From assembly GCF_018399035.1 (NCBI RefSeq), contig NZ_CP073760.1, forward strand, positions 4,464,501 to 4,528,500: a stretch of 64,000 nt of DNA, read 5' to 3'. The position numbers and the translations under genes were made by a program. Below the pieces are notes generated by a model that saw only the letters and a list, made by a program, of their open reading frames with translations, ran no database searches and was not told the origin of the DNA. This document shows, piece after piece, positions 4,490 through 64,000 of this stretch (position 1 is the first letter of the stretch; each line of letters begins with the position of its first letter). This stretch comes from Thiocapsa sp. GTDB taxonomy: Bacteria > Pseudomonadota > Gammaproteobacteria > Chromatiales > Chromatiaceae.

Positions 4490-4594
4490 TAGGTGATTTC
4501 CGGGAAAGCATCGACCAACAAGGGGCGACTTTAGTCGCCCGGTAAGCATTGGCAACACGCACGGCCGGGATGATCATTCCCGGAAATCGCCTTA
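4490..4594 (+). repeat. Family-1 inverted repeat, copy 1
   Basis: About 105 bp with complementary ends TAGGTGATTTCCGGGA and TCCCGGAAATCGCCTTA. Inside are the hairpin GGGCGACTTTAGTCGCCC and the motif GGCCGGGATGATCATTCCCGG. This copy lacks the TGTA found after CAACA in the others. It abuts a family-2 repeat. Confidence 0.9.
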
Positions 4595-4679
4595 AACCGC
4601 GCCAGCTCCGAGGGTTGTCGGAGCTCGCGCGGCCAAGCCAATCCCACAAACGACGCATACCGCAGCGGGCGCGGTTTAA
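4593..4679 (+). repeat. Family-2 inverted repeat, copy 1
   Basis: About 87 bp with ends TTAAACCGCGCC and GGCGCGGTTTAA. The interior (AGCTCC..., GCCAAGCCAATCCCA, CGCATACCGC) is shared with copies near 11.9, 16.9, 35.8, 42.1, 50.3, 59.3 and 63.8 kb. The right end supplies the stop codon of the next gene on the minus strand. Confidence 0.9.
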
Positions 4680-5974
4680 CCGCGACGCGCCAACAGGGTC
4701 CGCCCGTCGTCGGCCTTCAGGATCAAGGCGCCTGTAGGATCCACTTCGAAGGTTCTGATCCGAGCAAGCAGATCGAGGACCTTGCGCTCCTGATCCATCA
4801 AGGCCGGCGCGCAGGCCATCATGGTCGTTGCCGAGAGCCCGAGTGTCAGCGTCTCGCCGGTGAGGCTGTAGTCGCCCTGATAGGTATTGCAGGAGGCCCG
4901 GCCCCACAGACGGCCGTCGGCGCCGAAGTTCAGCGTGACGCGGGAACGATCGATGATACCGCCACCGCCGATGTCCTCGACCACCCATTCGGGTCCCTGA
5001 AGCAGCGTGGCGGGGTCCCCGCCGCAGCCCTCGAGCCTGCGGTCGTCGAGCTGGATCTCCACCCTTGCGGGGTGCGGCATGCCGCTCATGGTGTCGATGC
5101 AGGGCCGATCGAAGATACTGACGACGAGGTCGCCGTCTTCGATCAGATTGCGATAGCGGCGCCCGTCCTCGAGCAGCTCCTGCTCGGTCAGTGCGACATT
5201 GATCCGGGTCTCGCCGAGATCCGTGGTCAGCTCGACGCGCTTATCGGTGAGCTCCAGGCTCCAAAAGGGCTCGTTGCCGGTCGCTCGAAAGCCTGTCGTC
5301 GTGGTCTCCACCGGGAGGCATTCCGGATAGGCCGTGCCCGCGATCTCGAGCATCCCGCGCTCCCCCTTGCCCCGGAAGGAGGTGGTCGGATCCGCGAGGG
5401 CCTCATAGCGGGCGCCCGAGCCCGAGACCGCTTGTCTCAGATCGAATGTCCGATCGCCGACCTGAAGGCGCATGCGATCCTCCAGATAGCCGACACGGAT
5501 CGGCTGATCCCCGCAGACCATCTCGCTCGCAAAGGGGATCGGCTCGTAGGGTCGCATCAGGATGGTGCCGAGATCGAGCGACTCGACCGAAGGATCGAGC
5601 GGCACCTCGTCGGTGATCCACGTCGCCGGACCACCGGACAGGACCGCGCCGCGGACGAAATACGTCTGCTCCGGGAGCAGCGCCGCGCGCTCGACCACGA
5701 GCGCGAAGGGGATCGGGACCTGGCGGCCGTCCAGCGCGATCCTCTGCTCGGCGACCGAGCGCCCGCCCGGCAGGCTCGGGTCGATGAGCTCGACGATCGC
5801 GAGGGCGTCCGGCGGCAGGGCGATGCGGGCCAGGTTGCTCAGCTCGCCGATGATGTGCAGGCTCGATGTCTCATCCCGGCCTTCGGGCGCCCCGGCGAGG
5901 ACGGTCTGCGCGCCGACGATGAAGGCTAGGCATGGCATGAGGAACGTGAGCGTAGTGCGACGGATCAGCGACAT
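4676..5974 (-). CDS. YbaY-MliC-COG3650-META four-domain envelope protein
   Basis: Secreted or periplasmic protein of 432 residues with signal peptide MSLIRRTTLTFLMPCLAFIVGAQ...A. In order: a YbaY-like domain (about 38-140, LHIIGELSNLARIALPPDA to LDLGTILMRPYE); an MliC-type lysozyme-inhibitor domain (about 150-215, MVCGDQPIRVGYLEDRMRLQ, QAVSGSGARYEA, SFRGKGERGMLEIAG); a COG3650-like section (FRATGNEPFWSLEL); and a C-terminal META/HslJ domain (EWVVEDIGGGGIIDRSRVTL, ASCNTYQGDYSL, TMMACAPALMDQE). These domains usually occur singly or in pairs. Its TAA stop (4676-4678) lies inside a family-2 repeat. The likely job is envelope stress or lysozyme resistance, inferred from the domains. Confidence 0.85.
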   Translation of the reverse strand: MSLIRRTTLTFLMPCLAFIVGAQTVLAGAPEGRDETSSLHIIGELSNLARIALPPDALAIVELIDPSLPGGRSVAEQRIALDGRQVPIPFALVVERAALLPEQTYFVRGAVLSGGPATWITDEVPLDPSVESLDLGTILMRPYEPIPFASEMVCGDQPIRVGYLEDRMRLQVGDRTFDLRQAVSGSGARYEALADPTTSFRGKGERGMLEIAGTAYPECLPVETTTTGFRATGNEPFWSLELTDKRVELTTDLGETRINVALTEQELLEDGRRYRNLIEDGDLVVSIFDRPCIDTMSGMPHPARVEIQLDDRRLEGCGGDPATLLQGPEWVVEDIGGGGIIDRSRVTLNFGADGRLWGRASCNTYQGDYSLTGETLTLGLSATTMMACAPALMDQERKVLDLLARIRTFEVDPTGALILKADDGRTLLARRG

Positions 5975-6159
5975 CGGGCAGTCTCCAGGGCGATGGAATT
6001 CGAGCTCGGCCGGCCGATCGGCGCTTGACGCGAGTCTCGGTTCGGATGGATCGTTCCGAGCGATGCGGTCGTGCAGCGATCACTGCACCCTCCGCAGGGC
6101 GATTCTGCCCTTGATTCCCCGAGCGTTCCAGGGCGAGACGCCCGATCGGCGATTGAGCT

Positions 6160-6267
6160 TAGGTGATTTCCGGGAAAGCATCGACCAACATGTAGGGGCG
6201 ACTTTAGTCGCCCGGTAACCATTGGAGGCATGCACGGCCGGGATGCTCATTCCCGGAAATCGCCTTA
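6160..6267 (+). repeat. Family-1 inverted repeat, copy 2
   Basis: Same ends and same TTTAGTCGCCC core hairpin as copy 1, with the small changes CCATTGGAGGCATGCACGG and GATGCTCATTCCCGG. It lies alone between the divergent YbaY-MliC-META gene and the PNPOx-like gene. Confidence 0.9.
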
Positions 6268-6341
6268 GCCCGTTTCCGCGACCGCCCCGGCGAGCCTCGG
6301 CCACGTCGATCAAGCATCCACGCGCGAGTGACACCCGGACC

Positions 6342-6902
6342 ATGTCCAGCGAGCCGAGCACCGACGCACCATCCTCCTCGCCCGATCTCCATGCGGTCTA
6401 CGAGGAGCTTCGGCTGTTTCGCGCCGGGTTTTCGACACTCGCGATGGCGACCTGCGGTCCGGACGGCGAACCCGACGCGAGCTATGCGCCTTATCTGGAG
6501 GTGGAAGGCGATCTCTACGTCTTCGTCAGCGCGCTCTCGACCCACACCGCCAACCTGATCGAAACGGGGCGAGTCAGCGTGCTCTTCATCGAAGACGAGA
6601 CAAGGGCTGCGCACCCGTTCGTGCGTCGACGTCTGACCTTACAGTGCCGGGTCGAGGAGATCGCGCGCGACAGAGACGGGTACGAAGGCGTCCTCGACCT
6701 GTTCGAGACCCGCTTCGGCGGTCTGGTCAAGACCTTGCGCGCGTTGGTGGACTTTCATCTTCTGCGCTTGCATCCGGAGCGCGGGCGCTACGTGAAAGGG
6801 TTCGGCAAGGCGTTCGCCATTGACGATCTCGAGCTTGCCCGCATCCGGCATCTCCGAGAGATCGGCCGTCGCGGTGTTCCGGGGGACGATTCCGCAGCCT
6901 GA
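6342..6902 (+). CDS. HugZ-like / pyridoxamine-phosphate-oxidase fold protein
   Basis: Split-barrel flavin- or heme-binding family. After the ATG at 6342 (MSSEPSTDAPSSSPD) come LRLFRAGFSTLAMATCGPDGEPDASYAPYL, DLYVFVSALSTHTANLIETG and SVLFIEDE, which are the core strands of the PNPOx-like barrel. The tail FHLLRLHPERGRYVKGFGKAFAI matches the HugZ family, whose members bind or degrade heme. The frame is open upstream into the repeat at 6160-6267, but that part is not protein-like. 186 residues. It stands alone; folP follows convergently. Confidence 0.82.
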   Translation: MSSEPSTDAPSSSPDLHAVYEELRLFRAGFSTLAMATCGPDGEPDASYAPYLEVEGDLYVFVSALSTHTANLIETGRVSVLFIEDETRAAHPFVRRRLTLQCRVEEIARDRDGYEGVLDLFETRFGGLVKTLRALVDFHLLRLHPERGRYVKGFGKAFAIDDLELARIRHLREIGRRGVPGDDSAA

Positions 6903-11866: not shown

Positions 11867-11953
11867 TTAAACCGCGCCCAGCACGATATGCGATGTTTTT
11901 GGATGGGATCGGCCCCGGCGGAGTTGACGACCGCTGGAGCCGGCGCTGCTTAA
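11867..11953 (-). repeat. Family-2 inverted repeat, copy 2
   Basis: Ends TTAAACCGCGCC and GGCGCTGCTTAA; the right end has mutated. Interior TTTTTGGATGGGATCGGCCCC matches copies at 35.8 and 63.8 kb. A 20-base AT-rich linker (GATATTAAAAATGTTAAAAT) joins it to a family-3 repeat. Confidence 0.88.
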
Positions 11954-11975
11954 GATATTAAAAATGTTAAAATTC

Positions 11976-16830: not shown

Positions 16831-16851
16831 AATGATCTGTTTTGTAATCTC

Positions 16852-16938
16852 TTAAACCGCGCCGACTCCAACGGTCGTCAAGTCTGCCGGGGCCGATCCC
16901 ATCCAAAAACACCGCGTACGTCGCTGGGCGCGGTTTAA
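16852..16938 (+). repeat. Family-2 inverted repeat, copy 3
   Basis: Perfect ends TTAAACCGCGCC and GGCGCGGTTTAA. Interior GACTCCAACGGTCGTCAAG, TGCCGGGGCCGATCCCATCC. The right end supplies the ruvB stop codon. Confidence 0.92.
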
Positions 16939-35752: not shown

Positions 35753-35838
35753 TAAACCGCGCCCGGTGCGGTATGCGTAATTTGTTGGATGGCTTGGCCG
35801 CACCGGCTCCGACGACTGTCGGAGCCGGCGCGGTTTAA
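35753..35838 (-). repeat. Family-2 inverted repeat, copy 4
   Basis: Ends TAAACCGCGCC and GGCGCGGTTTAA; interior GGTGCGGTATGCG and GGATGGCTTGGCC. It follows a partial duplication of its own left end (TAAACCGCGTC). An AT-rich 21-base linker separates it from the next repeat. Confidence 0.9.
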
Positions 35839-41609: not shown

Positions 41610-42038
41610 ATGTACCTGCTGGACACCAATGTTGTCTCCGAGCTTCGCAAGCCCCGGCCGCACGGCGCCGTTGTTGCGTGGATCAATTCAGTCGACGATG
41701 GCAGTCTGCATCTGGCCACCGTAACGCTTGGCGATATCCAGGCCGGCATCGAATTGACCCGTGAGCAGGACGCCGGGAAGGCCGCAGAGATTGAATCCTG
41801 GCTTGATCTCGTCACGGACTCTTACAACGTCTTGCCGATGGACGGCCCGGCGTTCCGCTGCTGGGCCAAACTCATGCACAGGACATCGGATACTCTCTAC
41901 GAAGACGCGATGATTGCCGCAATTGCGAAAGTAAAAGGGCTTATCGTCGTCACACGCAACGTTTCCGACTTCTCTTCCTTCGGTGTTGGGCTTCTCAATC
42001 CATTCGAGTTTGGCTCGAAGCCCGGAAATGCAGACTAA
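41610..42038 (+). CDS. PIN-domain toxin, VapC/FitB type
   Basis: 142 residues. MYLLDTNVVSELRKPRPHGAV carries the first PIN Asp. Then come ATVTLGDIQAGIELTREQD with the Glu, TLYEDAMIAAIAKVKGLIVVTRNVSDF with the C-terminal acidic residues, and LLNPFE, typical of FitB-like toxins. It should cleave RNA (VapC type). It looks intact. Its TAA stop (42036-42038) is the first triplet of a family-2 repeat. Confidence 0.92.
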   Translation: MYLLDTNVVSELRKPRPHGAVVAWINSVDDGSLHLATVTLGDIQAGIELTREQDAGKAAEIESWLDLVTDSYNVLPMDGPAFRCWAKLMHRTSDTLYEDAMIAAIAKVKGLIVVTRNVSDFSSFGVGLLNPFEFGSKPGNAD

Positions 42039-42120
42039 ACCGCGCCAGCTCCAACGCTCGTTAAGTCTGCCGGGGCTGATCCCATACTAAAACATCGCAT
42101 ACCGCCTTGGGCGCGGTTGA
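42036..42120 (+). repeat. Family-2 inverted repeat, copy 5
   Basis: Ends TAAACCGCGCC and GGGCGCGGTTGA; interior AGCTCCAACG, TAAGTCTGCCGGGGCTGATCCCAT. The first TAA is the stop codon of the PIN toxin. Confidence 0.9.
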
Positions 42121-42172
42121 ATCCCGACATCCGATCGCGTCCGTCGCGCGTCGCTCCCTCCGTACATATCCC

Positions 42173-50224: not shown

Positions 50225-50239
50225 ATGATTTTTAATATC

Positions 50240-50326
50240 TTAAACCGCGCCGTCTCCAGCGGTCGTCAAATCCGCCGGGGCCGATCCCATCCAACAACAT
50301 CGCATACCGCACCGGGCGCGGTTTAA
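50240..50326 (+). repeat. Family-2 inverted repeat, copy 6
   Basis: Ends TTAAACCGCGCC and GGGCGCGGTTTAA; interior GTCTCCAGCGGTCGTC and GCCGGGGCCGATCCCATCC. Confidence 0.9.
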
Positions 50327-55911: not shown

Positions 55912-57006
55912 ATGTACGTCGTCACCAACCGCAAGGTCAACGCTCGCAAGGAAGGTCTGGATGTCTTCGGCAATACGCCGAACGCGGTCGGCCCGAACGA
56001 GCTGAGGCTCGTGAAGGTCACCAAGCAGGGTTCTCACTACGCGACCGAGCTGCTTACCGACAAGCTGACGCAGGCCGAGGTGCGGGAGCTGAAGCGACGG
56101 CACGCGCTCGACATCGACGAGCGGGCGGATTGGTACGCGAGTCTGCAGGTCGCCTGCGATCTCATGGAGCAGGCGGCACGCGAGAAGCGTCATCTGCTGG
56201 TCTATGTCCACGGCTTCAACAACGACATGAAGGACGTGCTGAGCACGGCCGAGACGCTCGAGGCGCTTTACAACGTCATCGTTTTGCCCTTCAGTTGGCC
56301 GGCGAACGGCGGCGGGGCGGTCAGCGGGACGGCGGCCTACCTCGACGACAAACAGGACGCGCGGGTCTCGATGGACGCGCTGAACCGCTTCTTCGAGAAG
56401 GTGCAGCTCTACCATGAAAAGCTGACCGAGGCGCGTCGCGAGGTCTTTTGGACGCAGGCGATGGCGGAAGACGGCGGTCGCGGCAATCGGGAGGCCGTTC
56501 AAGCGCGCTTCACGCAGCTGTTGGCCGAGGATTGCAAGGTGACGCTCAATCTGATGTGCCACAGCATGGGCAACTATGTGCTCAAATACGCCCTGCAACC
56601 CGGCGCTGCAGCCGCCGCACGGCTGATCTTCGACAATGTCTCGCTGGTGGCCGCCGATACGAACAATGCGGCTCACGAGACCTGGGTTCAGCGCATCCAG
56701 GCCCGCAACCGTCTCTATGTCGTCATCAACGAGAACGACTTCGCGCTTGCGTGGTCGCGGCGCAAGCCGGGCGAGGCGCAGCGGGCGCGGCTCGGCCACT
56801 ACCTCAAGAACCTATTCGCGGCGAATGCGCGCTATATCGACATCACGCGTGCCGAGGGTGTGGGAAACACCCACGGCTATTTCGCGGGCGAGCCGGTGGC
56901 GCGCAACCCGGCGCTCAAGGCCGTGTTCAGCGATGCCTTCGAAGGCGGGCGGGCCGAGGATCGGTTGTCCTATGCGACCGATATCAACGCCTATCGGTTG
57001 ATCTAG
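55912..57006 (+). CDS. DUF900 alpha/beta-hydrolase
   Basis: 364 residues from the ATG at 55912, preceded by GAGGAG. Hydrolase motifs: RHLLVYVHGFNNDMKDVLSTAETLEAL (oxyanion HG), VLPFSWPANGG, and NLMCHSMGNYVLKYAL with the nucleophile Ser in HSMGN. VAADTNNA follows, with HGYFAGEPVARNPAL near the end offering the His. DUF900 proteins are cytoplasmic or secreted esterases of unknown substrate. Single gene; it overlaps the convergent nucleotidyltransferase by 4 bases. Confidence 0.85.
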   Translation: MYVVTNRKVNARKEGLDVFGNTPNAVGPNELRLVKVTKQGSHYATELLTDKLTQAEVRELKRRHALDIDERADWYASLQVACDLMEQAAREKRHLLVYVHGFNNDMKDVLSTAETLEALYNVIVLPFSWPANGGGAVSGTAAYLDDKQDARVSMDALNRFFEKVQLYHEKLTEARREVFWTQAMAEDGGRGNREAVQARFTQLLAEDCKVTLNLMCHSMGNYVLKYALQPGAAAAARLIFDNVSLVAADTNNAAHETWVQRIQARNRLYVVINENDFALAWSRRKPGEAQRARLGHYLKNLFAANARYIDITRAEGVGNTHGYFAGEPVARNPALKAVFSDAFEGGRAEDRLSYATDINAYRLI

Positions 57007-57383
57007 ACGCGCATCGCTGGGTTCACGCTGGCGCCCTGTTGCCGCCCGGACGCGCGGGCATCGGCATGTCGGAGGGTCACCCTGTCCTGCGCGATAATCC
57101 TTCGGAACGATTCGCTCGCAGCGGCCCAATCCACGATATCGACACGCCAGGGCAGGTCGGACTCTGAGAGTTCCTCGGCCAGTGCGGCGCGGACATCAAG
57201 GGAAAGAGGCGTGTCGGTGATGATCGCGAGATCCAGATCCGAGTAGGGCCTGGCCGTCCCTTTGGCGCGCGAGCCGAAGGCCCAGACCTCGTGGTGCGGG
57301 AGATGCCGATCGAGAATGTCGCGGACGATCGTCCAGTGCTCGGGGCTGATGTCGATCGGGGGTACCGTGGTCGCCTCTGTCAT
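57003..57383 (-). CDS. MntA-like nucleotidyltransferase (antitoxin type)
   Basis: 126 residues. VWAFGSRAKGTARPYSDLDLAI is the minimal nucleotidyltransferase motif GS-x10-D-x-D, followed by WRVDIVDWAAASESFRRII with the third acidic residue. In HepT/MntA systems this enzyme AMPylates the HEPN toxin and silences it. It overlaps the HEPN-like gene by 4 bases. The C-terminal end (ASGRQQGASVNPAMRV) looks like read-through. Confidence 0.88.
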   Translation of the reverse strand: MTEATTVPPIDISPEHWTIVRDILDRHLPHHEVWAFGSRAKGTARPYSDLDLAIITDTPLSLDVRAALAEELSESDLPWRVDIVDWAAASESFRRIIAQDRVTLRHADARASGRQQGASVNPAMRV

Positions 57384-57781
57384 ATTGCGCGTTCCTTTAT
57401 GCGGTCACGCAGATAAGTCGCCTCGGCGAGAAATGACGGGATGGCATCGACGACCTTGAGTGCAGTGTCTTCGTCATACGTGTGGCTGGTCATCCCGCGC
57501 ATCTCGCGGTATCGACGCCAAGTAGGCCAATCACCCTGCAGCAGACCCTGTGCGTTGCCCGAGCGGATCAGATCCTGAAAGGCCACGCCGTGATAAGTGT
57601 CGGGACTGGGCGAGACAGATGCAAGATAACGTTTCAGCATCTTGTGGCTGAGCTCGTAGGTAAACTCGAAGCGCTGAATCAGGCCATCACGAATCTGTGT
57701 GTCCGTGATGTCCTGTTGATACCGGGCTAGGCCTTCCGCCAATCGCGCGATGGCTTTCTCAAGGGCGCTGATGTCGAGCAT
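57380..57781 (-). CDS. HEPN-like nucleotidyltransferase substrate-binding protein (HI0074 family)
   Basis: 133 residues, all helical: LEKAIARLAEGLARYQQDITDTQIRDGLIQRFEFTYELSHKMLKRYL, VAFQDLIRSGNAQGLLQGDWPTWRRYREMRGMTSHTYDEDTAL. The R-x-x-M-T-S-H segment is the HEPN-type active motif of HI0074/HepT proteins. It is probably the RNase toxin of the pair, with the downstream nucleotidyltransferase as antidote. The promoter should lie in 57782-57873. Confidence 0.88.
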   Translation of the reverse strand: MLDISALEKAIARLAEGLARYQQDITDTQIRDGLIQRFEFTYELSHKMLKRYLASVSPSPDTYHGVAFQDLIRSGNAQGLLQGDWPTWRRYREMRGMTSHTYDEDTALKVVDAIPSFLAEATYLRDRIKERAI

Positions 57782-57873: not shown

Positions 57874-58118
57874 TTAAACCTAGATCCGGCAGTTGAACGC
57901 TTCGTGCTTATGCAAGACTTTGACGGTATTGACGATCGCGTTTATCCGATGGCTCACTGGCCGGGTGATGGCCGCTACGACCCCTGGAGCACGCCCCGCG
58001 CGGCGCCCGACTGCGTTGCAACTCGTTGTCGTAGAACCACTACGACGCCTCGTCGCGCCTTGCCGGACACCACGCGGGACGCACTCCGGGGACCGTTCAA
58101 CTGCCGGATCTAGGTTAA
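57874..58118. repeat. 245-bp inverted-repeat (MITE-like) element
   Basis: The left end (TTAAACCTAGATCCGGCAG...) and inverse right end (TTAACCTAGATCCGGCAG...) match over 25 bases with one missing A. The interior holds a stem GTCGTAG-AACC-ACTACGAC near 58027-58047 and no gene. It ends in TTAAA like the other repeats, and its right end supplies the stop of the HMA gene. Only one copy is in the window. Confidence 0.75.
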
Positions 58119-58468
58119 AGCAGCACGCTCACCAGCCGCACGGCCGAGCGCTCGACGGCTTTCCGCATCACGGCGCCGACGAGGGCCTTGCCGAAGACCT
58201 CGTGCACGCGCGTTGTACCCAAATCCGTGCGGATCGTGGCACCGAGACAGCCGACCTGCTCGAGCCTTTCCAGGATCTGCGCTTGAGTCAGGCGTTCGGG
58301 CTCGTAGTGGACGGTGATGCTGCCTGCACGCGGATTCACGCGTACCTCGCGCACCCCTTCGGTGGAGAGCAGCTCGCCCTCGGCCAGTCGCGCACTTACC
58401 GGGTCGCAACGAAACGAGCCGGAACGAATCCGTAGGCGGCCGGGGACGTGATGGATATAGTGGCTCAT
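58115..58468 (-). CDS. HMA-like domain protein next to the P-type ATPase
   Basis: 117 residues. MSHYIHHVPGRLRIRSGSFR begins an HMA_2-like ferredoxin fold without the CxxC metal pair (EGVREVRVNPRAGSITVHYEPERLTQAQILERLEQVGC). The N-terminus of the nearby P-ATPase (RYRIVHELPGRLRLRVP) is clearly related. The second half ends KALVGAVMRKAVERSAVRLVSVLL, a hydrophobic/basic helix that could touch membrane. The TAA stop is in the inverted-repeat element. Probably a member of the fez-like cluster, though separated from it by a cupin gene. Confidence 0.8.
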   Translation of the reverse strand: MSHYIHHVPGRLRIRSGSFRCDPVSARLAEGELLSTEGVREVRVNPRAGSITVHYEPERLTQAQILERLEQVGCLGATIRTDLGTTRVHEVFGKALVGAVMRKAVERSAVRLVSVLL

Positions 58469-58699
58469 GGACGCATGCCTCGCGATGGAAGAGCAGATGA
58501 CGACAAACGGATGGTATGACCTGTCATGGTTAAATGCAAATCCTTCGCATTACCGGTATCATCTCGGGGTCTTCGGATCCGCAAGACCGACACTCGACGG
58601 TGAGGCCCGCGCCGATGCTCTTCCAGCCGCTGGCTCCAAGACATCGACAACGGGGCTTCACCGGTTCCATGCACCGCTTTCAAGACGAGATCGCGCACG

Positions 58700-59071
58700 A
58701 TGAACAAAGACGATGATTGGTTGGTCTTCCAGCTCGAGGACCTGATGGCACGCGTCGAGCCGGGCACCCTGTCGCTCAAGGAGTTTCTGCGCACCCCCTC
58801 GCTCAGCTGCTCGGTCTATCACCTCCCCGCCGGATCGCGCGACATGGCGAGCGCGCACGAGGAGGACGAGCTGTACCTCGTCCTCGGCGGACGGGGGCGA
58901 CTGCGGGTGGGGGAGAGCGAGCACGCGGTCCGCGAAGGCACGCTGATGTACGTGCATGCGGCCTGTGACCACACCTTTTTCGACGTCGAGGAGGATCTGA
59001 CCGTCCTGGTCTTCTTCGGCGCGCCGGTCCGGCTAAACCGCGCCGGGAGCACCGACGAAGACGTTGACTGA
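58700..59071 (+). CDS. Cupin-domain protein
   Basis: 123 residues. LARVEPGTLSLKE-like start (seen as MARVEPGTLSLKEFLRTPSLSCSVYHLPAG), then cupin motif 1 SAHEEDELYLVLGGRGRLRVG and motif 2 REGTLMYVHAACDHTFFDVEEDLTVLVFF. Metal-binding residues His and Glu are visible. It stands on the opposite strand between the HMA gene and the ATPase, so it is probably a separate transcript. Confidence 0.85.
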   Translation: MNKDDDWLVFQLEDLMARVEPGTLSLKEFLRTPSLSCSVYHLPAGSRDMASAHEEDELYLVLGGRGRLRVGESEHAVREGTLMYVHAACDHTFFDVEEDLTVLVFFGAPVRLNRAGSTDEDVD

Positions 59072-59125
59072 CGTTGATATGCCGAGGCAGCGAACGAGAC
59101 TGGGAGTCTGCGCGGTATAGAGTAT

Positions 59126-59234
59126 TTAGGCGATTTCCGGGAATGCGCATCCCGGCCGTGCATGCCTCCAATGGTTACAGGGCGACTAAAGTCGCCCCTA
59201 CATGTTGGTCGATGCATTCCCGGAAATCACCTTA
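59126..59234 (-). repeat. Family-1 inverted repeat, copy 6
   Basis: Inverse orientation: TTAGGCGATTTCCGGGAATG ... CATTCCCGGAAATCACCTTA. It carries the same CATGCCTCCAATGG variant as copy 2. Only about ten bases separate it from a family-2 copy. Confidence 0.9.
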
Positions 59235-59243
59235 AAAAATGAC

Positions 59244-59330
59244 TTAAACCGCGCCGACTCCAACGGTCGTCAAGTCTGCCGGGGCTGATCCCATCCGAAA
59301 ACGTTGCATATCGCTCCGTGCGCGGTTCAA
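59244..59330 (+). repeat. Family-2 inverted repeat, copy 7
   Basis: Ends TTAAACCGCGCC and GTGCGCGGTTCAA; interior GACTCCAACGGTCGTCAAG and GCCGGGGCTGATCCCATCC. The TTCAA end supplies a TGA stop to the P-ATPase. Confidence 0.9.
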
Positions 59331-61600
59331 CGACGGACGATGTCCTTGATCTGCTTCAGTTGGGCATTCACCGCCCCGTCGGTCTCCCCGTCCAGTCGAA
59401 CACCCTTGAGTGCATTGAAGAGGATGCCGATGGTGGTGCCGTTGTGCAGCAGAGCGCTGGCGACCGGCGAGAGGACACCGCCGATCGCGCCGGCCAGGAT
59501 GCCGGTGTTGATCCCGATGGCTGCGCGGAAGTTGCCGCGGATCAGCGCCATGGTCTTGGTTGCGATCTCGCGGGCGTCGGCCACGGCGCCGAGGCGGTCG
59601 TCCATCAGCAGGATGTCGGCGGTGGCGCGGGCGATGTCCGCGCCGCGCGGCATGGCGATGCCGACGTCTGCGGCGACCAGTGCCGGGCCGTCGTTCACGC
59701 CGTCGCCGACGAAGGCCACGCGGCTGCCGTCCGCCTGGAAGCGGGCGATCAGGGCGGCCTTTTCCTCCGGCGCGACCTCCGCGTAGAAGGCGTCGAGACC
59801 CAGCTCGCGGGCCAGGGCCTCGGCCTTCTGGCGGCGGTCGCCCGTGATCATCACCAGACGACGAATCCCTTGTGCCCGCAGCCGGTCGAGCGTCTCGCCG
59901 GTCTCGGCCCGCAGGGTATCGCGCAGTGCGATCAGCCCGACCGGTCCCTGCGCGTTGCCGACGAAGAGCAGGATCTTGCCCTCGTCCTCCAGACGCGCGA
60001 TCTGCTCGGCATGCTCCTCGAACGCGATGCCGCGATGCTCTTCCAGATAGTGCCGGCTGCCGACCAGGATCTGCTCGCCTTCGACCTCGGCCGAGAGACC
60101 GTGCGCGACCAGATAGTCGACCTCGCCGTGCGAGATATGCTGCAGATCGCGCGAGCGCGCCGCCTCCACCACGGCGTTGGCCACCGGATGGGAGGCGTGC
60201 TCCTCGACCGAGGCGACGAGCGCGAGGAGTGCCGTCTCGGTGCAGGTGGCCTGTTTGTTGAGAACGACGACATCCGTGACCGCGAGCTCGCTGTGGGTCA
60301 GCGTGCCGGTCTTGTCGAAGACGATGGTGTCGACACCGGCGAGGTGCTCGATCGCCTCGCCGCCCTTCATGAGGACACCGTGCGCGGCGGCCTGGTACAT
60401 CCCGGATTTGAAGGCGACCGGCGTGCCCAGCTTGAGCGCACAGGAGTAATCGACGAGAAACACGGACTGCAGGCGGGTCAGGTTGCGGGTCACCCCGTAG
60501 ACCAGTGCACCGGTCCCCAGGGTCAGATAGACCCGCTGATCGGCAAGACGATCGGCCTCGCGCTGGGTGTCCGAGCGCTTGTCCAGCGACTCCTGGATGA
60601 AACGCGAGATGCGCGAGGTCGTGGTCTCAGCGCCGACCTGCGTCGCCTCGATGCGCAGACGACCCTCGATCAGGACCGCGCCCGAGACGGCACGGCGCGG
60701 TGCCTCCTTGCGCACCGGAACGTCCTCGCCGGTGACGGCGGCCTGATTGACCAGGGCGCTGCCGCCGACGACGCGGCCGTCGACCGGGATGGTCTCCCCG
60801 GTGCCGACGACGACCACCTCGCCGGGCATGACCTGATCGCCCGGAATCTGCGTCAGCTCGCCGTCGCGCTCGACCCAGGCTATGGCCGGCTCGGGTCGCA
60901 GCAGCTTGCGCAGCAGTCGGTCCGACTGGCGCTCGGTGCGTCGCTCCAGGAAGTTGCCGAGCGCGAGCAGAAAGTCGGTGATGTTGGCGGTGTAGAGCTC
61001 GCCCCGGGCCGCGGAGAGCCCGATCGCCAGTGCGTCCAACACCTCGACCTTGATGCCCTTGCGGATCAGGGTCTCGGCCCCGGTCCCCAAGGTCGAGGCG
61101 ACGTTGGCCACCGTCAGCGCGACCTGGAGCGGTCGGCTCAGAAAGGGCAGGAGTGCGATGGTCGCCGCGGCGGTGACCATGGGGGCGATCTCCGCCTCGC
61201 GCGCCCCGCCGCCCGTGAAACCGGACTCGCTCCGCGGCGAATAGGCATCCAGTCGTCGGAGCACGGCGTCGCGGGCGCCGGCGGATTCGCGATAGACCAC
61301 CACCAGACTGCGGGCGCCGCAACTCGCCCGTGCGCTCGTGACGATGCCGAGTGGATCCATCCAGTCTTCCAGGTCGTCGGGGTCGACGCCCGGCGCGCCG
61401 AGCGCCGGCACGCGCAACCGCAATCGCCCGGGAAGCTCATGGACGATGCGATAGCGCATGTCGAGCGGCGGCAAGCCGGCGGTCATCATCGGGTCAATCC
61501 ACAGCCGGCGCGCCCGACGCGCAGACCAAGCGGGCTCGGGTGCTTCGTGAACGACGGTCGTCGCAGGACACGGGTTCGAGCAATCGACGTCCTCGAACAT
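59327..61600 (-). CDS. fezB: P1B-type metal ATPase with SCA motif (ferrosome FezB-like)
   Basis: Up to 757 residues; conserved sequence starts near MRYRIVHELPGRLRLRVP (residue 48), so ATGs at 61489 or 61459 are alternatives. An HMA_2-like N-domain is followed by paired TMs. The actuator has TGEDVPV (about 290), the metal-transport helix has DYSCALKLGTPVAF (about 386), then the phosphorylation loop VFDKTGTLTHSEL (Asp about 429), HASHPVANAV, MITGDRRQKAEAL and FVGDGVNDGPALVAADVGIAM. Copper and zinc pumps have CPC, cobalt pumps SPC. SCA is the signature I know for P1B-6 pumps such as FezB, which load iron into ferrosomes. The TGA stop lies in a repeat. Confidence 0.85.
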   Translation of the reverse strand: MFEDVDCSNPCPATTVVHEAPEPAWSARRARRLWIDPMMTAGLPPLDMRYRIVHELPGRLRLRVPALGAPGVDPDDLEDWMDPLGIVTSARASCGARSLVVVYRESAGARDAVLRRLDAYSPRSESGFTGGGAREAEIAPMVTAAATIALLPFLSRPLQVALTVANVASTLGTGAETLIRKGIKVEVLDALAIGLSAARGELYTANITDFLLALGNFLERRTERQSDRLLRKLLRPEPAIAWVERDGELTQIPGDQVMPGEVVVVGTGETIPVDGRVVGGSALVNQAAVTGEDVPVRKEAPRRAVSGAVLIEGRLRIEATQVGAETTTSRISRFIQESLDKRSDTQREADRLADQRVYLTLGTGALVYGVTRNLTRLQSVFLVDYSCALKLGTPVAFKSGMYQAAAHGVLMKGGEAIEHLAGVDTIVFDKTGTLTHSELAVTDVVVLNKQATCTETALLALVASVEEHASHPVANAVVEAARSRDLQHISHGEVDYLVAHGLSAEVEGEQILVGSRHYLEEHRGIAFEEHAEQIARLEDEGKILLFVGNAQGPVGLIALRDTLRAETGETLDRLRAQGIRRLVMITGDRRQKAEALARELGLDAFYAEVAPEEKAALIARFQADGSRVAFVGDGVNDGPALVAADVGIAMPRGADIARATADILLMDDRLGAVADAREIATKTMALIRGNFRAAIGINTGILAGAIGGVLSPVASALLHNGTTIGILFNALKGVRLDGETDGAVNAQLKQIKDIVRR

Positions 61601-61601
61601 C

Positions 61602-61687
61602 TAAACCGCGTCCGCCACCGAGGCATCGGGCCGCGGCAACGTCGGGCCCAAGCACGAACAACCCTGTCATCACGACGACGCGGTTGA
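61602..61687 (+). repeat. Family-3 type inverted repeat with its own interior
   Basis: Ends TAAACCGCGTC and GACGCGGTTGA; the interior GGCATCGGGCCGCGGCAAC is not shared with other copies. It fills the gap between the ATPase start and the preceding gene and supplies that gene's last codons and stop. Confidence 0.7.
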
Positions 61688-62098
61688 CTTGGACTGAGCC
61701 GCGTGATGCAACTCGGCCTCGGCATCCTGGAAGCGTTCCTTGGCCTCTTCGATGCCGCCTTGCAGTGCCGACCAGACCTGGACAACGCCTTTGATCGCGG
61801 TGCGCTGGAGGCTTTCGTTGGTGAGCAAATAGGTCGCCGCAGCGCCGATCAGCAGGCCCTTCAGGAAGCGATCGTTGCCGAAATCGAGGAACGAGCTTGA
61901 TGGCTGCGCCTGCCGAGGGTAGGCGTTACCGGCCTGCATCGTGCCGTAGCCTTGCGCGTATCCGTATCCCGGTGCGGCCGACCCGTAGGCGGCATAACCG
62001 ACCATATGAGAGGCTTGGCTACCGCCTTGGATCTGGGGCGCCTGTGCGCCCGGGTCGGCCGCCATCGGGTCACCGTAAGGGTAATAGGGGCTGTTCAT
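61670..62098 (-). CDS. Gly/Tyr-rich single-span protein of the fez-like cluster
   Basis: 142 residues from the ATG at 62098. The N-terminal half is low-complexity, rich in Gly, Tyr, Ala and Gln (MNSPYYPYGDPMAADPGAQA...). Then FLDFGNDRFLKGLLIGAAATYLLTNESLQRTAIKGVVQVW forms one glycine-rich membrane span with an amphipathic helix, followed by IEEAKERFQDAEAELHHA. The core F-x-K-G-x-L-x-G-A-A-A-x-x-x-L-T-N-E-S is shared with the 272-residue protein three genes upstream. Probably a ferrosome membrane or scaffold protein, by context. Its last codons lie in a repeat. Confidence 0.8.
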   Translation of the reverse strand: MNSPYYPYGDPMAADPGAQAPQIQGGSQASHMVGYAAYGSAAPGYGYAQGYGTMQAGNAYPRQAQPSSSFLDFGNDRFLKGLLIGAAATYLLTNESLQRTAIKGVVQVWSALQGGIEEAKERFQDAEAELHHAAQSKSTASS

Positions 62099-62202
62099 GT
62101 CGATCCGTCTCCGTGTGAAAGTGTCGGCAGCGCGGCCGCTGGCCGGTCGGAAGTGATAAGGGACGAGACTCATCGGGGTGTCGCCGGACGATCGGTAAGC
62201 GC

Positions 62203-62421
62203 TTAGGGGGCGCTCATGGGGCGCGCATCCGGCGCGCACGGCTGGTCCCCTGACGGGGCGAGCGTCGGTGAGGGGGGCGCATCCGTCGAGGCCGACCGCG
62301 CCCGAGCCTTGAACAGGGAGCGCGCGAGCAAGACGAGGGCTGCCCCGGCGAGGAGACCGCCGATCCCTTCGGCCAGGTTTTTATGCACGCCGTGGCGTTG
62401 ACGCTGCCGATGATCACTCAT
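62203..62421 (-). CDS. Small membrane protein of the fez-like cluster
   Basis: 72 residues. MSDHRQRQRHGVHKNLAEGI has a His-rich start, then one span GGLLAGAALVLLARSLFKAR and a Pro-rich tail (TDAPPSPTLAPSGDQPC). Its start overlaps the upstream gene by 8 bases. The MSDH opening is shared with the two genes before it. No family assigned. Confidence 0.7.
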   Translation of the reverse strand: MSDHRQRQRHGVHKNLAEGIGGLLAGAALVLLARSLFKARARSASTDAPPSPTLAPSGDQPCAPDARPMSAP

Positions 62422-62767
62422 GGGCGTCGCCCCGCGCCTCTGCCCAACGCTGCAGGCCGTAGAGTGCCAGAGTGCCCGCCGCGAACATGATGCCGAGACG
62501 CATCAGGCCCTGTTCGGCGACGCTGGACGCAGCCGCACCACCGATGGCGGTGGCCACGGCTGCGGCGATGGCCGTTTTGCCGGTCTCGGCGACCGCTGCG
62601 GTTGCGGTCAGGTCGCCGGACTCGACGCGTTGCAGATTGGATGCGGCGGCGACACTGCCGCCGACGACGGCGCCCAAGGTGGCGAGTCGGACCAGGGTCG
62701 CGCAGTCCGCGCCGCCGGTTCGGGTCCCGGGTTGAACCTGTGCTTGAACGAGCCCGTGATCAGACAT
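62414..62767 (-). CDS. Gly/Ala-rich membrane protein of the fez-like cluster
   Basis: 117 residues starting MSDHGLVQAQVQPGTRTGGA. Three hydrophobic glycine-zipper-like segments: LVRLATLGAVVGGSVAAASNL, TAIAAAVATAIGGAAASSVA and LGIMFAAGTLALYGLQRW. Compact helical membrane proteins of this sort shape or coat organelle membranes in other systems; here that is only suggested. Overlaps both neighbours by 8 bases, so translation is coupled. Confidence 0.75.
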   Translation of the reverse strand: MSDHGLVQAQVQPGTRTGGADCATLVRLATLGAVVGGSVAAASNLQRVESGDLTATAAVAETGKTAIAAAVATAIGGAAASSVAEQGLMRLGIMFAAGTLALYGLQRWAEARGDAHE

Positions 62768-63578
62768 CGGATGGTTCCGCCCGATCTGTCGGCCGTGGCC
62801 GCTGCGGGCCTTCCTTGACGCGATCGACCCCCGTCTTGACCGCCGATTTCGCCTTCGCGCCCGTCTTGAACAGGGCGCCTTGAACGGATTCGTTCGTCAA
62901 CACAAGGACGGCCGCGGCGCCGAGGAGTGCGCCTTTCCAAAATTCCGAATCGTCCAGATTCAGCATCTTGGACAGACTCGACAAACCGTTGCCTCCGTTG
63001 GCGATCTCGTCGACCAGCTCCGACATGCCGGGGCCTCGCGGTCCGTGAGCGTTGCCGGAGACGGGCGGGTGAGCGGGCATGGCGCCGAAAGGCGGGGCGT
63101 AGCCGGGGTGAGGCATGCCGGGCGGGACCAGACCGGAATAGGGCGGCGGCAAGGTATAGCCGGCTTGGGCCTGGGCCTGGGCCTGGGCCTGGGCATGATA
63201 GGCGGCCCAGTAAGGATCGAAACCCGGCGGGAGACCATAGCCTGCCGGGTGCTGCGCCGGACCCGGATACGGACCCGGATACGTGCCCGGAGTGGGGCCT
63301 TGCGACATCCCCGAGTAGGACGGGGTTGCACCGTATCCGGGTTGACCGAGGTGCGCCCCCGGTCCGGGATAACCGCCGGCCATGCCGGCGTGAGGGCCGT
63401 TCGGAGGGAGCGCGTTTGCGCCCTGAGTCGGGGCCGGATGAAAGGCGGCCGCGCCGGGGGCGAAACCTGTTGCGGCCGCGCCTTGCTGCGGTGCCGCTGC
63501 GCCTTGTCGCGGTGCATCCGCCGCCGGCTGACCGGCTGCCGACGTGTGTTCCTGTTGACCGTTGCCGTGATCGCTCAT
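62760..63578 (-). CDS. Pro/Gly-rich membrane protein, first gene of the fez-like cluster
   Basis: 272 residues from the ATG at 63578 (MSDHGNGQQEHTSAAGQPAA). Residues 10-185 are low-complexity Pro/Gly/Ala/Tyr, with a run of Ala-Gln pairs (HAQAQAQAQAQAG) and several YPGPG or YAPPFG units. The C-terminal part SKMLNLDDSEFWKGALLGAAAVLVLTNESVQGALFK is the membrane span shared with the 142-residue protein, then AKSAVKTGVDRVKEGPQR. The long disordered tail may scaffold a condensate or organelle coat, by analogy only. The TGA overlaps the next start. Confidence 0.78.
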   Translation of the reverse strand: MSDHGNGQQEHTSAAGQPAADAPRQGAAAPQQGAAATGFAPGAAAFHPAPTQGANALPPNGPHAGMAGGYPGPGAHLGQPGYGATPSYSGMSQGPTPGTYPGPYPGPAQHPAGYGLPPGFDPYWAAYHAQAQAQAQAQAGYTLPPPYSGLVPPGMPHPGYAPPFGAMPAHPPVSGNAHGPRGPGMSELVDEIANGGNGLSSLSKMLNLDDSEFWKGALLGAAAVLVLTNESVQGALFKTGAKAKSAVKTGVDRVKEGPQRPRPTDRAEPSDV

Positions 63579-63708
63579 GCTCAGTGTTCCTTGTCGGTGT
63601 TCGATCGAGTCGGCACAGCGCCGGCTCGCCACAAGTGATACTGAGCGAATGGTAACGGTTCTTGTTTATGTTCTCAACAAGGGATGATGCGATGGGTCTT
63701 GAGGCCCC

Positions 63709-63803
63709 TAAACCGCGCTCAACCGCGCCCAGTGCGGTAGGCGATGTTTTTGGATGGGATCGGCCCCGGCGGATTTCAGAACCGCTGGAGCCGGCGCGGT
63801 TTA
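63709..63803 (-). repeat. Family-2 inverted repeat, copy 8
   Basis: A duplicated left end (TAAACCGCGCTCAACCGCGCC), interior TTTTTGGATGGGATCGGCCCC and end GGCGCGGTTTAG. The right end gives TAA to the partial gene at the window edge. Confidence 0.88.
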
Positions 63804-64000
63804 GGCCACCTGCGTCCGGTTTTCGTTCGGGCGCCGTGCGCTGCCGGTTTCGCCGTCGGAGTGCACCGCCGGGGTCACCCACACGCGACCCATGCCGGGG
63901 CCGAGCTCGAGCTCGAAGGGTGTCGGCAGTCGGTCCAGTGGTGACTCGGGCGAGACGTCCAGCATCGGATCGGTTGTTCGAGCGACCTGGCAGATGTCGT
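63801..64000 (-). CDS. Unidentified protein, C-terminal 65 residues (runs off the window)
   Basis: The minus strand from the edge reads DICQVARTTDPMLDVSPESP, then LDRLPTPFELELGPGMGRVW, VTPAVHSDGETGSARRPNEN and RTQVA-stop. Composition is protein-like, but no family is recognised from this piece. The TAA at 63801-63803 is in a family-2 repeat. Confidence 0.6.
   Translation of the reverse strand, partial: DICQVARTTDPMLDVSPESPLDRLPTPFELELGPGMGRVWVTPAVHSDGETGSARRPNENRTQVA

Follow-up and report, generated by a model that had tools for sequence, protein, structure and literature searches.

A probable ferrosome (fez) gene cluster in Thiocapsa and its MamC-related membrane protein

Six minus-strand genes in a 64,000-nucleotide stretch of contig NZ_CP073760.1 (hereafter the window), part of a complete 5.73-Mb Thiocapsa genome grouped in one genus with Thiocapsa sp. 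KS1 and T. roseopersicina, raise the question of whether a purple sulfur bacterium carries the gene set for ferrosomes, membrane organelles that store iron. From 63578 down to 58115 the order is p7–p6–p5–p4–ATPase–HMA_2, where p4 to p7 denote small proteins and HMA_2 a small protein of that family; a plus-strand cupin gene is inserted between the ATPase and HMA_2 genes. The open reading frames lie where the original prediction had placed them, six on the minus strand with the cupin gene ahead of the last. That prediction had also read the cluster as ferrosome-like, and gene families, gene order and the clade of the pump bear it out as a matter of homology. We consider it very probable that this is a fez (ferrosome) cluster of the Shewanella/Vibrio type, and we infer organelle formation from it.

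The SCALK pump and its gene set in other genomes

The ATPase gene (59327..61600, minus strand) encodes 757 amino acids in its longest open reading frame, although relatives point to Met38 (61489) or Met48 (61459) as a possible start. The protein has a P1B core (TIGR01525, E 8e-148) with the phosphorylation motif DKTGTLT and a C-terminal HNGTT motif. It carries LVDYSCALKLGTP (SCALK) at the place of the CPC of copper and zinc pumps, as had been predicted, and the CPC motif of the CopA/ZntA exporters was not found in its membrane part. Fold and catalytic motifs are common to the pump and the CopA/ZntA P1B ATPases, and CopA structures are its best solved relatives, whereas SCALK in place of CPC, the HNGTT motif and an HMA_2-like N-terminal domain (LPGRLRLR) without CXXC distinguish it. 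This domain, likewise predicted, gave an E-value of only 0.014 with Pfam, while a profile built here reached ca. 1e-23 in orthologues.

To place the pump we used a tree of 40 P-type ATPases, which could have refuted the original prediction. The SCALK pumps formed one side of a branch (Shimodaira–Hasegawa-like approximate likelihood-ratio test, SH-aLRT, 99), with the CPC pumps (97) and the P2A pumps placed separately, and the Thiocapsa pump fell among the SCALK pumps with those of Shewanella, Vibrio, Ferrimonas and Rhodopseudomonas rhenobacensis. P1B-6 pumps with SCALK are known from the literature as FezB. Five P-type ATPases were found in the genome with PF00122: two P2A-like proteins, the SCALK pump and two further P1B pumps, both of which carry CPC. 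Elsewhere in the genus, one genome (G006) holds two distinct fez-type clusters (L022 and L023), whose pumps are 81% and 66% identical to that of the window. At another locus (L044:6960-9045, G268), a frameshift close to residue 578 splits the pump gene, whose neighbour feoB is intact; the split may reflect a pseudogene or a sequencing error.

A profile of a pump segment was scanned against one genome per species of GTDB r220, giving 376 loci; the 80 best of these were retained and underlie all counts out of 80 given below; profiles of the small proteins were built from the window proteins and iterated on these 80 loci. A domain common to p4 and p7, here called p47, was present in 78/80 loci and in two copies in 63, and p6 was present in 71/80. 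The order [HMA_2]–p47–p6–(p5)–p47–pump–(HMA_2) recurs from Chromatiaceae to Shewanella, Vibrio, Photobacterium, Ferrimonas and Budvicia, and the loci include those of dozens of Chromatiaceae and their relatives. A protein with DUF2325 turns up repeatedly next to the cluster (11/80 loci, e.g. L060:2702-3985).

The pump was found in 5/60 sampled Shewanella species. Four Shewanella loci that we fetched all had six genes: a divergent HMA_2 gene, HMA_2, p7-like, p6-like, p4-like and pump. A lack of homologues of the small proteins had been named as a second possible refutation; instead, p7-, MamC- and p4-like proteins and HMA_2 stand in order beside the Shewanella pump. Thiocapsa and the Shewanella operon (Shewanella putrefaciens type) share the SCALK pump, the MamC-like protein with a p47 protein on either side, HMA_2 and the order. 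Of the predicted fit to a fez operon, the number of six genes, the order and five families agree with Shewanella species; as to the sixth, Shewanella has an upstream HMA_2 gene (ca. 110 amino acids) that Thiocapsa lacks, and Thiocapsa has p5 in its stead. Furthermore, the HMA_2 gene of Thiocapsa lies downstream, behind the opposed cupin gene, whereas its Shewanella counterpart is upstream and divergent.

Six fez genes give rise to ferrosomes in R. palustris CGA009 (PMC12016538). We compared its operon (RPA2333-2338) through the congener R. rhenobacensis, in which the pump, two p47 proteins and an HMA_2 protein, all shared with Thiocapsa, stand together at a contig end; the MamC-like protein, present in Thiocapsa, was not detected there. 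Searches of the genus and family around R. rhenobacensis turned up the cluster in no further genome. Plasmid p3 of Azospirillum brasilense carries six genes in a row, five of which were recognised as members of these families. The Desulfovibrio magneticus fezABC and Clostridioides difficile fezAB systems, as known from the literature, share the FezB pump with Thiocapsa. The D. magneticus type also has FezC, a heme cytochrome related to DUF4405 (PMC10979944); no protein of the Thiocapsa cluster, p4 to p7 included, matched DUF4405; the Thiocapsa cluster was therefore not classed as the D. magneticus subtype. Fez-type clusters of metagenome-assembled genomes of Magnetococcales, a magnetotactic order, lack a MamC-like gene. 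They encode a two-span protein (L046:10048-10416 and L045:2835-3257) with HPY-GAAL-GF--LHL and no Pfam match, perhaps a FezC-like heme protein.

Iron context and the weight of the evidence

Genes of iron uptake accompany some of these clusters. feoB lies within the fetched flank in 12/80 loci, feoA-like genes in several, and the A. brasilense cluster adjoins an iron ATP-binding cassette transporter. A fez-type cluster in Cereibacter azotoformans (L174; plasmid pORIO2, NZ_CP089968.1), on a plasmid typed as conjugative, is flanked by feoA, TonB siderophore receptors and a FecR/sigma pair; from this plasmid-borne cluster, ferrosomes may be transferable. Six loci (L079 [6113-6652], L087, L095, L105, L109 and L110) encode a DUF2202 protein, which in L079 has a C-terminal membrane span and is encoded inside the operon, between p4 and the pump. 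We take DUF2202 to be a ferritin-like family; if so, its presence near fez operons would fit iron oxidation at the vesicle.

Fur-like boxes, scored at a threshold of at least 13 matches out of 19 with expectations from dinucleotide shuffles, were present upstream in 22/75 loci against 2.3 expected. A Fur box upstream of 63578 had been proposed as a check on the prediction. A site was found in the window at 63645-63663 (minus strand; plus-strand letters GCGAATGGTAACGGTTCTT), 67 nucleotides upstream of p7 and at the same place as AAACAAGAACCGTTATCATT in sister species; the position is conserved in the genus, but the site is degenerate (11/19). The Fur-like site upstream of the genome's feoAB reaches only 12/19, so the local Fur consensus is tentative.

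These data bear on whether the operon could be one of plain metal efflux, with the pump in the cell membrane exporting Fe(II) or another metal, the small proteins as auxiliaries and no organelle formed. The pump is indeed a P1B ATPase, most P1B pumps are exporters, and no organelle has been seen in this Thiocapsa. However, across classes the pump is accompanied by several small membrane proteins whose order is fixed, although efflux pumps need none, and the same set is the ferrosome set of the Shewanella-type clusters. Upstream Fur-like boxes suggest induction by lack of iron, the opposite of what efflux calls for, and p6 belongs to an organelle family. We therefore regard efflux as improbable.

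Several points weigh against the assignment as a fez cluster. The Thiocapsa cluster is known only from its genes; five families, not six, are common to Thiocapsa and Shewanella; and the comparison was made through Shewanella loci and R. rhenobacensis as stand-ins for the two strains in question, those of S. putrefaciens and R. palustris. The genome's own Fur-like site is weak, and the cluster lacks the FezC cytochrome known from other ferrosome systems, as judged from DUF4405. In addition, p6 is absent from Thiocapsa imhoffii (L057), where the other genes of the cluster are kept and which thus offers a natural deletion for comparison; with its non-detection in R. rhenobacensis, this indicates that p6 is not essential to all such clusters. 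The assignment is nevertheless preferred because the SCALK pumps form one clade, the set p47–p6–p47–FezB–HMA_2 recurs and the context is one of iron. Gene content, homology, order and conservation, as well as the feo association and Fur-like sites across loci, are direct observations.

p6 and the magnetosome protein MamC

p6 (62414..62767, minus strand; 117 amino acids) is a membrane protein of two to three helices. It matched the NCBIfam MamC model NF038051 with an E-value of 8.2e-10 and a score of 38.9 bits, and the match spans positions 12-93 of the 97 in the profile. Since the curated MamC cut-off of 100 bits was not reached, p6 is to be seen as a homologue of MamC and not as MamC itself. 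Independent relatives also matched the model, among them those of a Vibrio-like cluster (2.9e-8) and of a second locus of the genus (6.5e-10). Among the 38 members of the p6 family, 33 matched it at 0.01 or less (best 4e-12), and no other model was matched by more than one member.

p6 and MamC are both short and Ala/Gly-rich, and the score of p6 is far under the curated cut-off, so we considered whether the likeness reflects convergence of small membrane hairpins rather than homology. In the reciprocal direction, a profile built only from p6 relatives picked the MamC frame in 13/13 loci with an over-cut-off MamC, at 36-55 bits, with the next frame at 4.7 bits. Profile-profile comparison (hhalign) gave a probability of 98.7% and an E-value of 2e-16 over 82 columns without a gap, while the remaining cluster proteins, taken as controls (p4/p7, p5 and HMA_2 against p6 or MamC), stayed below 5%. 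When the MamC model was run on 398 genomes of the phylum, 13 matches exceeded the cut-off, exactly three more fell below E 1e-5 (window, G701 and G610), all beside SCALK pumps, and noise began at 0.002. The gapless alignment, the reciprocal searches, the controls and the restriction of scores below 1e-5 to true MamC and SCALK-pump neighbours make convergence very unlikely. From this reciprocal profile similarity across the whole hairpin, p6 is judged homologous to magnetosome MamC. This relation, missed by the original prediction, appears to be new.

The homology also raises the idea that the cluster descends from a magnetosome island or builds a magnetosome. Yet no cluster gene other than p6 matches any magnetosome model, and p6, below the cut-off, is the only match of the MamC model in the whole genome. 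A magnetosome gene cluster was not found around p6, whose neighbours are fez-type; the one true-MamC locus that we inspected closely (L135) has a CXXCH-rich, magnetochrome-like neighbour. The acidic loop residues invariant in the MamC proteins compared are kept only in part, being acidic in 40%, 54% and 14% of the p6 family at residues 57, 61 and 65 of the Thiocapsa p6. We regard a magnetosome relic or relative as very unlikely.

p6 and MamC (Mms13) share the patterns G-AVVGG-AA, N, TGK and ATA, and a helical hairpin is predicted for both, whereas the acidic residues of the loop and the setting of the p6 gene in a fez-type cluster differ. An AlphaFold2 model of p6 has helices at 21-49, 55-86 and 89-115, with a predicted local distance difference test score (pLDDT) of 70 and a predicted template modelling score (pTM) of 0.34, too weak for a fold search; no solved structure resembled p6 convincingly. 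The modelled three helices agree with the prediction for MamC, a helical hairpin whose loop is also helical (PMC3905215). A shared scaffold with a different mineral-contacting loop would suit another mineral.

Gene layout, neighbouring elements and proposed function

Sister Thiocapsa genomes preserve both the order of the genes and their sequences, with identities of 44-97% (76-95% between ATPase orthologues, lower for some small proteins), indicating that all six are real genes. An overlapping operon had been predicted, which holds for p7, p6 and p5, with overlaps of 8 nucleotides at p7/p6 and p6/p5, but not for the rest, since gaps of 104 nucleotides (p5–p4) and 69 nucleotides (p4–ATPase) follow. 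Likewise, of four proteins described as glycine-rich, p7, p6 and p4 are so (12-16% Gly) and p5 is not (8%). Hydropathy gave one segment for p7, three for p6, one for p5 and none or one for p4, where one to three spans had been described.

p7 (62760..63578, minus strand; 272 amino acids) has a P/G/A-rich low-complexity N-terminal part and the C-terminal membrane domain FWKGALLGAAAVLVLTNESVQ common to p4. The latter (61670..62098, minus strand; 142 amino acids) has a YtxH-like membrane-proximal domain and an invariant E-KE---DA-AE tail, and its alignment is conserved from Thiocapsa to Shewanella and R. rhenobacensis. p5 (62203..62421, minus strand; 72 amino acids), with one membrane span and a conserved RQRHGV-K-L motif, was found in 36/80 loci, upstream of p4 and mainly in Chromatiaceae; it is lineage-specific, and Thiocapsa has it in place of the upstream HMA_2 gene of Shewanella.

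The small HMA_2 protein (58115..58468, minus strand; 117 amino acids, YIHHVPGRLRIRS) matches PF19991 (E 6e-7), in agreement with the predicted HMA-like protein, and its homologue in the Shewanella clusters is the divergent YIHK---RLRVRS gene. It also lacks the CXXC metal motif; the absence of CXXC from both this protein and the ATPase speaks against the classical metal-chaperone role of HMA domains. The cupin gene (58700..59071, plus strand; 123 amino acids; PF07883, E 2.8e-8) is kept in 13/80 loci, often opposed to the HMA_2 gene, and is thus a conserved neighbour rather than an accident, with a putative accessory role. The original prediction had this gene and three repeats setting the HMA_2 gene apart; the cupin gene does so, but the repeats are irrelevant, belonging to a dispersed family. 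Two inverted copies of 93 nucleotides (59240-59332 and 63716-63808) are members of this family, an intergenic element of ca. 86 nucleotides with ends TAAACCGCGCC...GGCGCGGTT, of which the genome has at least 40 close copies (346 candidates) and the window eight, the others being at 4591-4680, 11867-11954, 16851-16938, 35755-35838, 42036-42121 and 50239-50326. It looks like a small palindromic mobile element and, being dispersed genome-wide, was rejected as part of the fez system.

Separately, 26-nucleotide inverted repeats (57874-57899 and 58094-58119; 96%), 194 nucleotides apart, delimit an element of ca. 245 bp, whose right arm provides the stop codon of the HMA_2 gene. Further out, at 57003-57781, lies a pair of small genes for a nucleotidyltransferase and a HEPN-like protein (MNT/HEPN toxin-antitoxin type), present in the sister loci L018 and L020 and not found in L019 and L021.

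For the working of the fez cluster, we infer the substrate and location of the pump, the organelle and the role of each protein. Iron limitation would relieve Fur repression of the cluster, and p7, p6, p5 and p4 would mark or shape vesicles derived from the inner membrane. FezB, the P1B-6 pump, would then move Fe(II) from the cytoplasm to the lumen of the vesicle at the expense of ATP, and iron would be laid down there as an amorphous granule for later anaerobic growth. The p6 hairpin would sit in the vesicle membrane and, like MamC in magnetosomes, probably touches the granule as it grows or gives order to the membrane. Because CXXC is absent, the HMA_2 domains of FezB and the small protein more likely serve in docking or sensing than as cysteine-based metal chaperones. 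As a guess, p4 and p7 may use their P/G/Y-rich N-terminal parts of low complexity to cluster at the surface of vesicles or to tether them together.

With this cluster, the gene set for ferrosomes would reach the purple sulfur bacteria, a group of phototrophs whose possible storage of iron in a membrane organelle is testable in culture. Its interest is raised by the conserved MamC-family protein. Published descriptions assign ferrosomes and magnetosomes to separate gene clusters, and Grant et al. (2022) reportedly found ferrosomes to be made by gene clusters of their own. MamC has, to our knowledge, so far been tied only to the magnetic organelles of magnetotactic bacteria; in the open-access literature, a search whose scope lay outside the primary ferrosome papers, we found no link between MamC and ferrosomes. 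We give roughly even chances to the idea that MamC-family proteins are general parts of bacterial iron organelles, serving ferrosomes in many proteobacteria and magnetosomes in magnetotactic ones, so that the two organelles have a part in common, which one may have recruited from the other. A protein family common to magnetosomes and to the neighbours of ferrosome pumps from Thiocapsa to Shewanella and Vibrio makes a common toolkit or origin directly testable.

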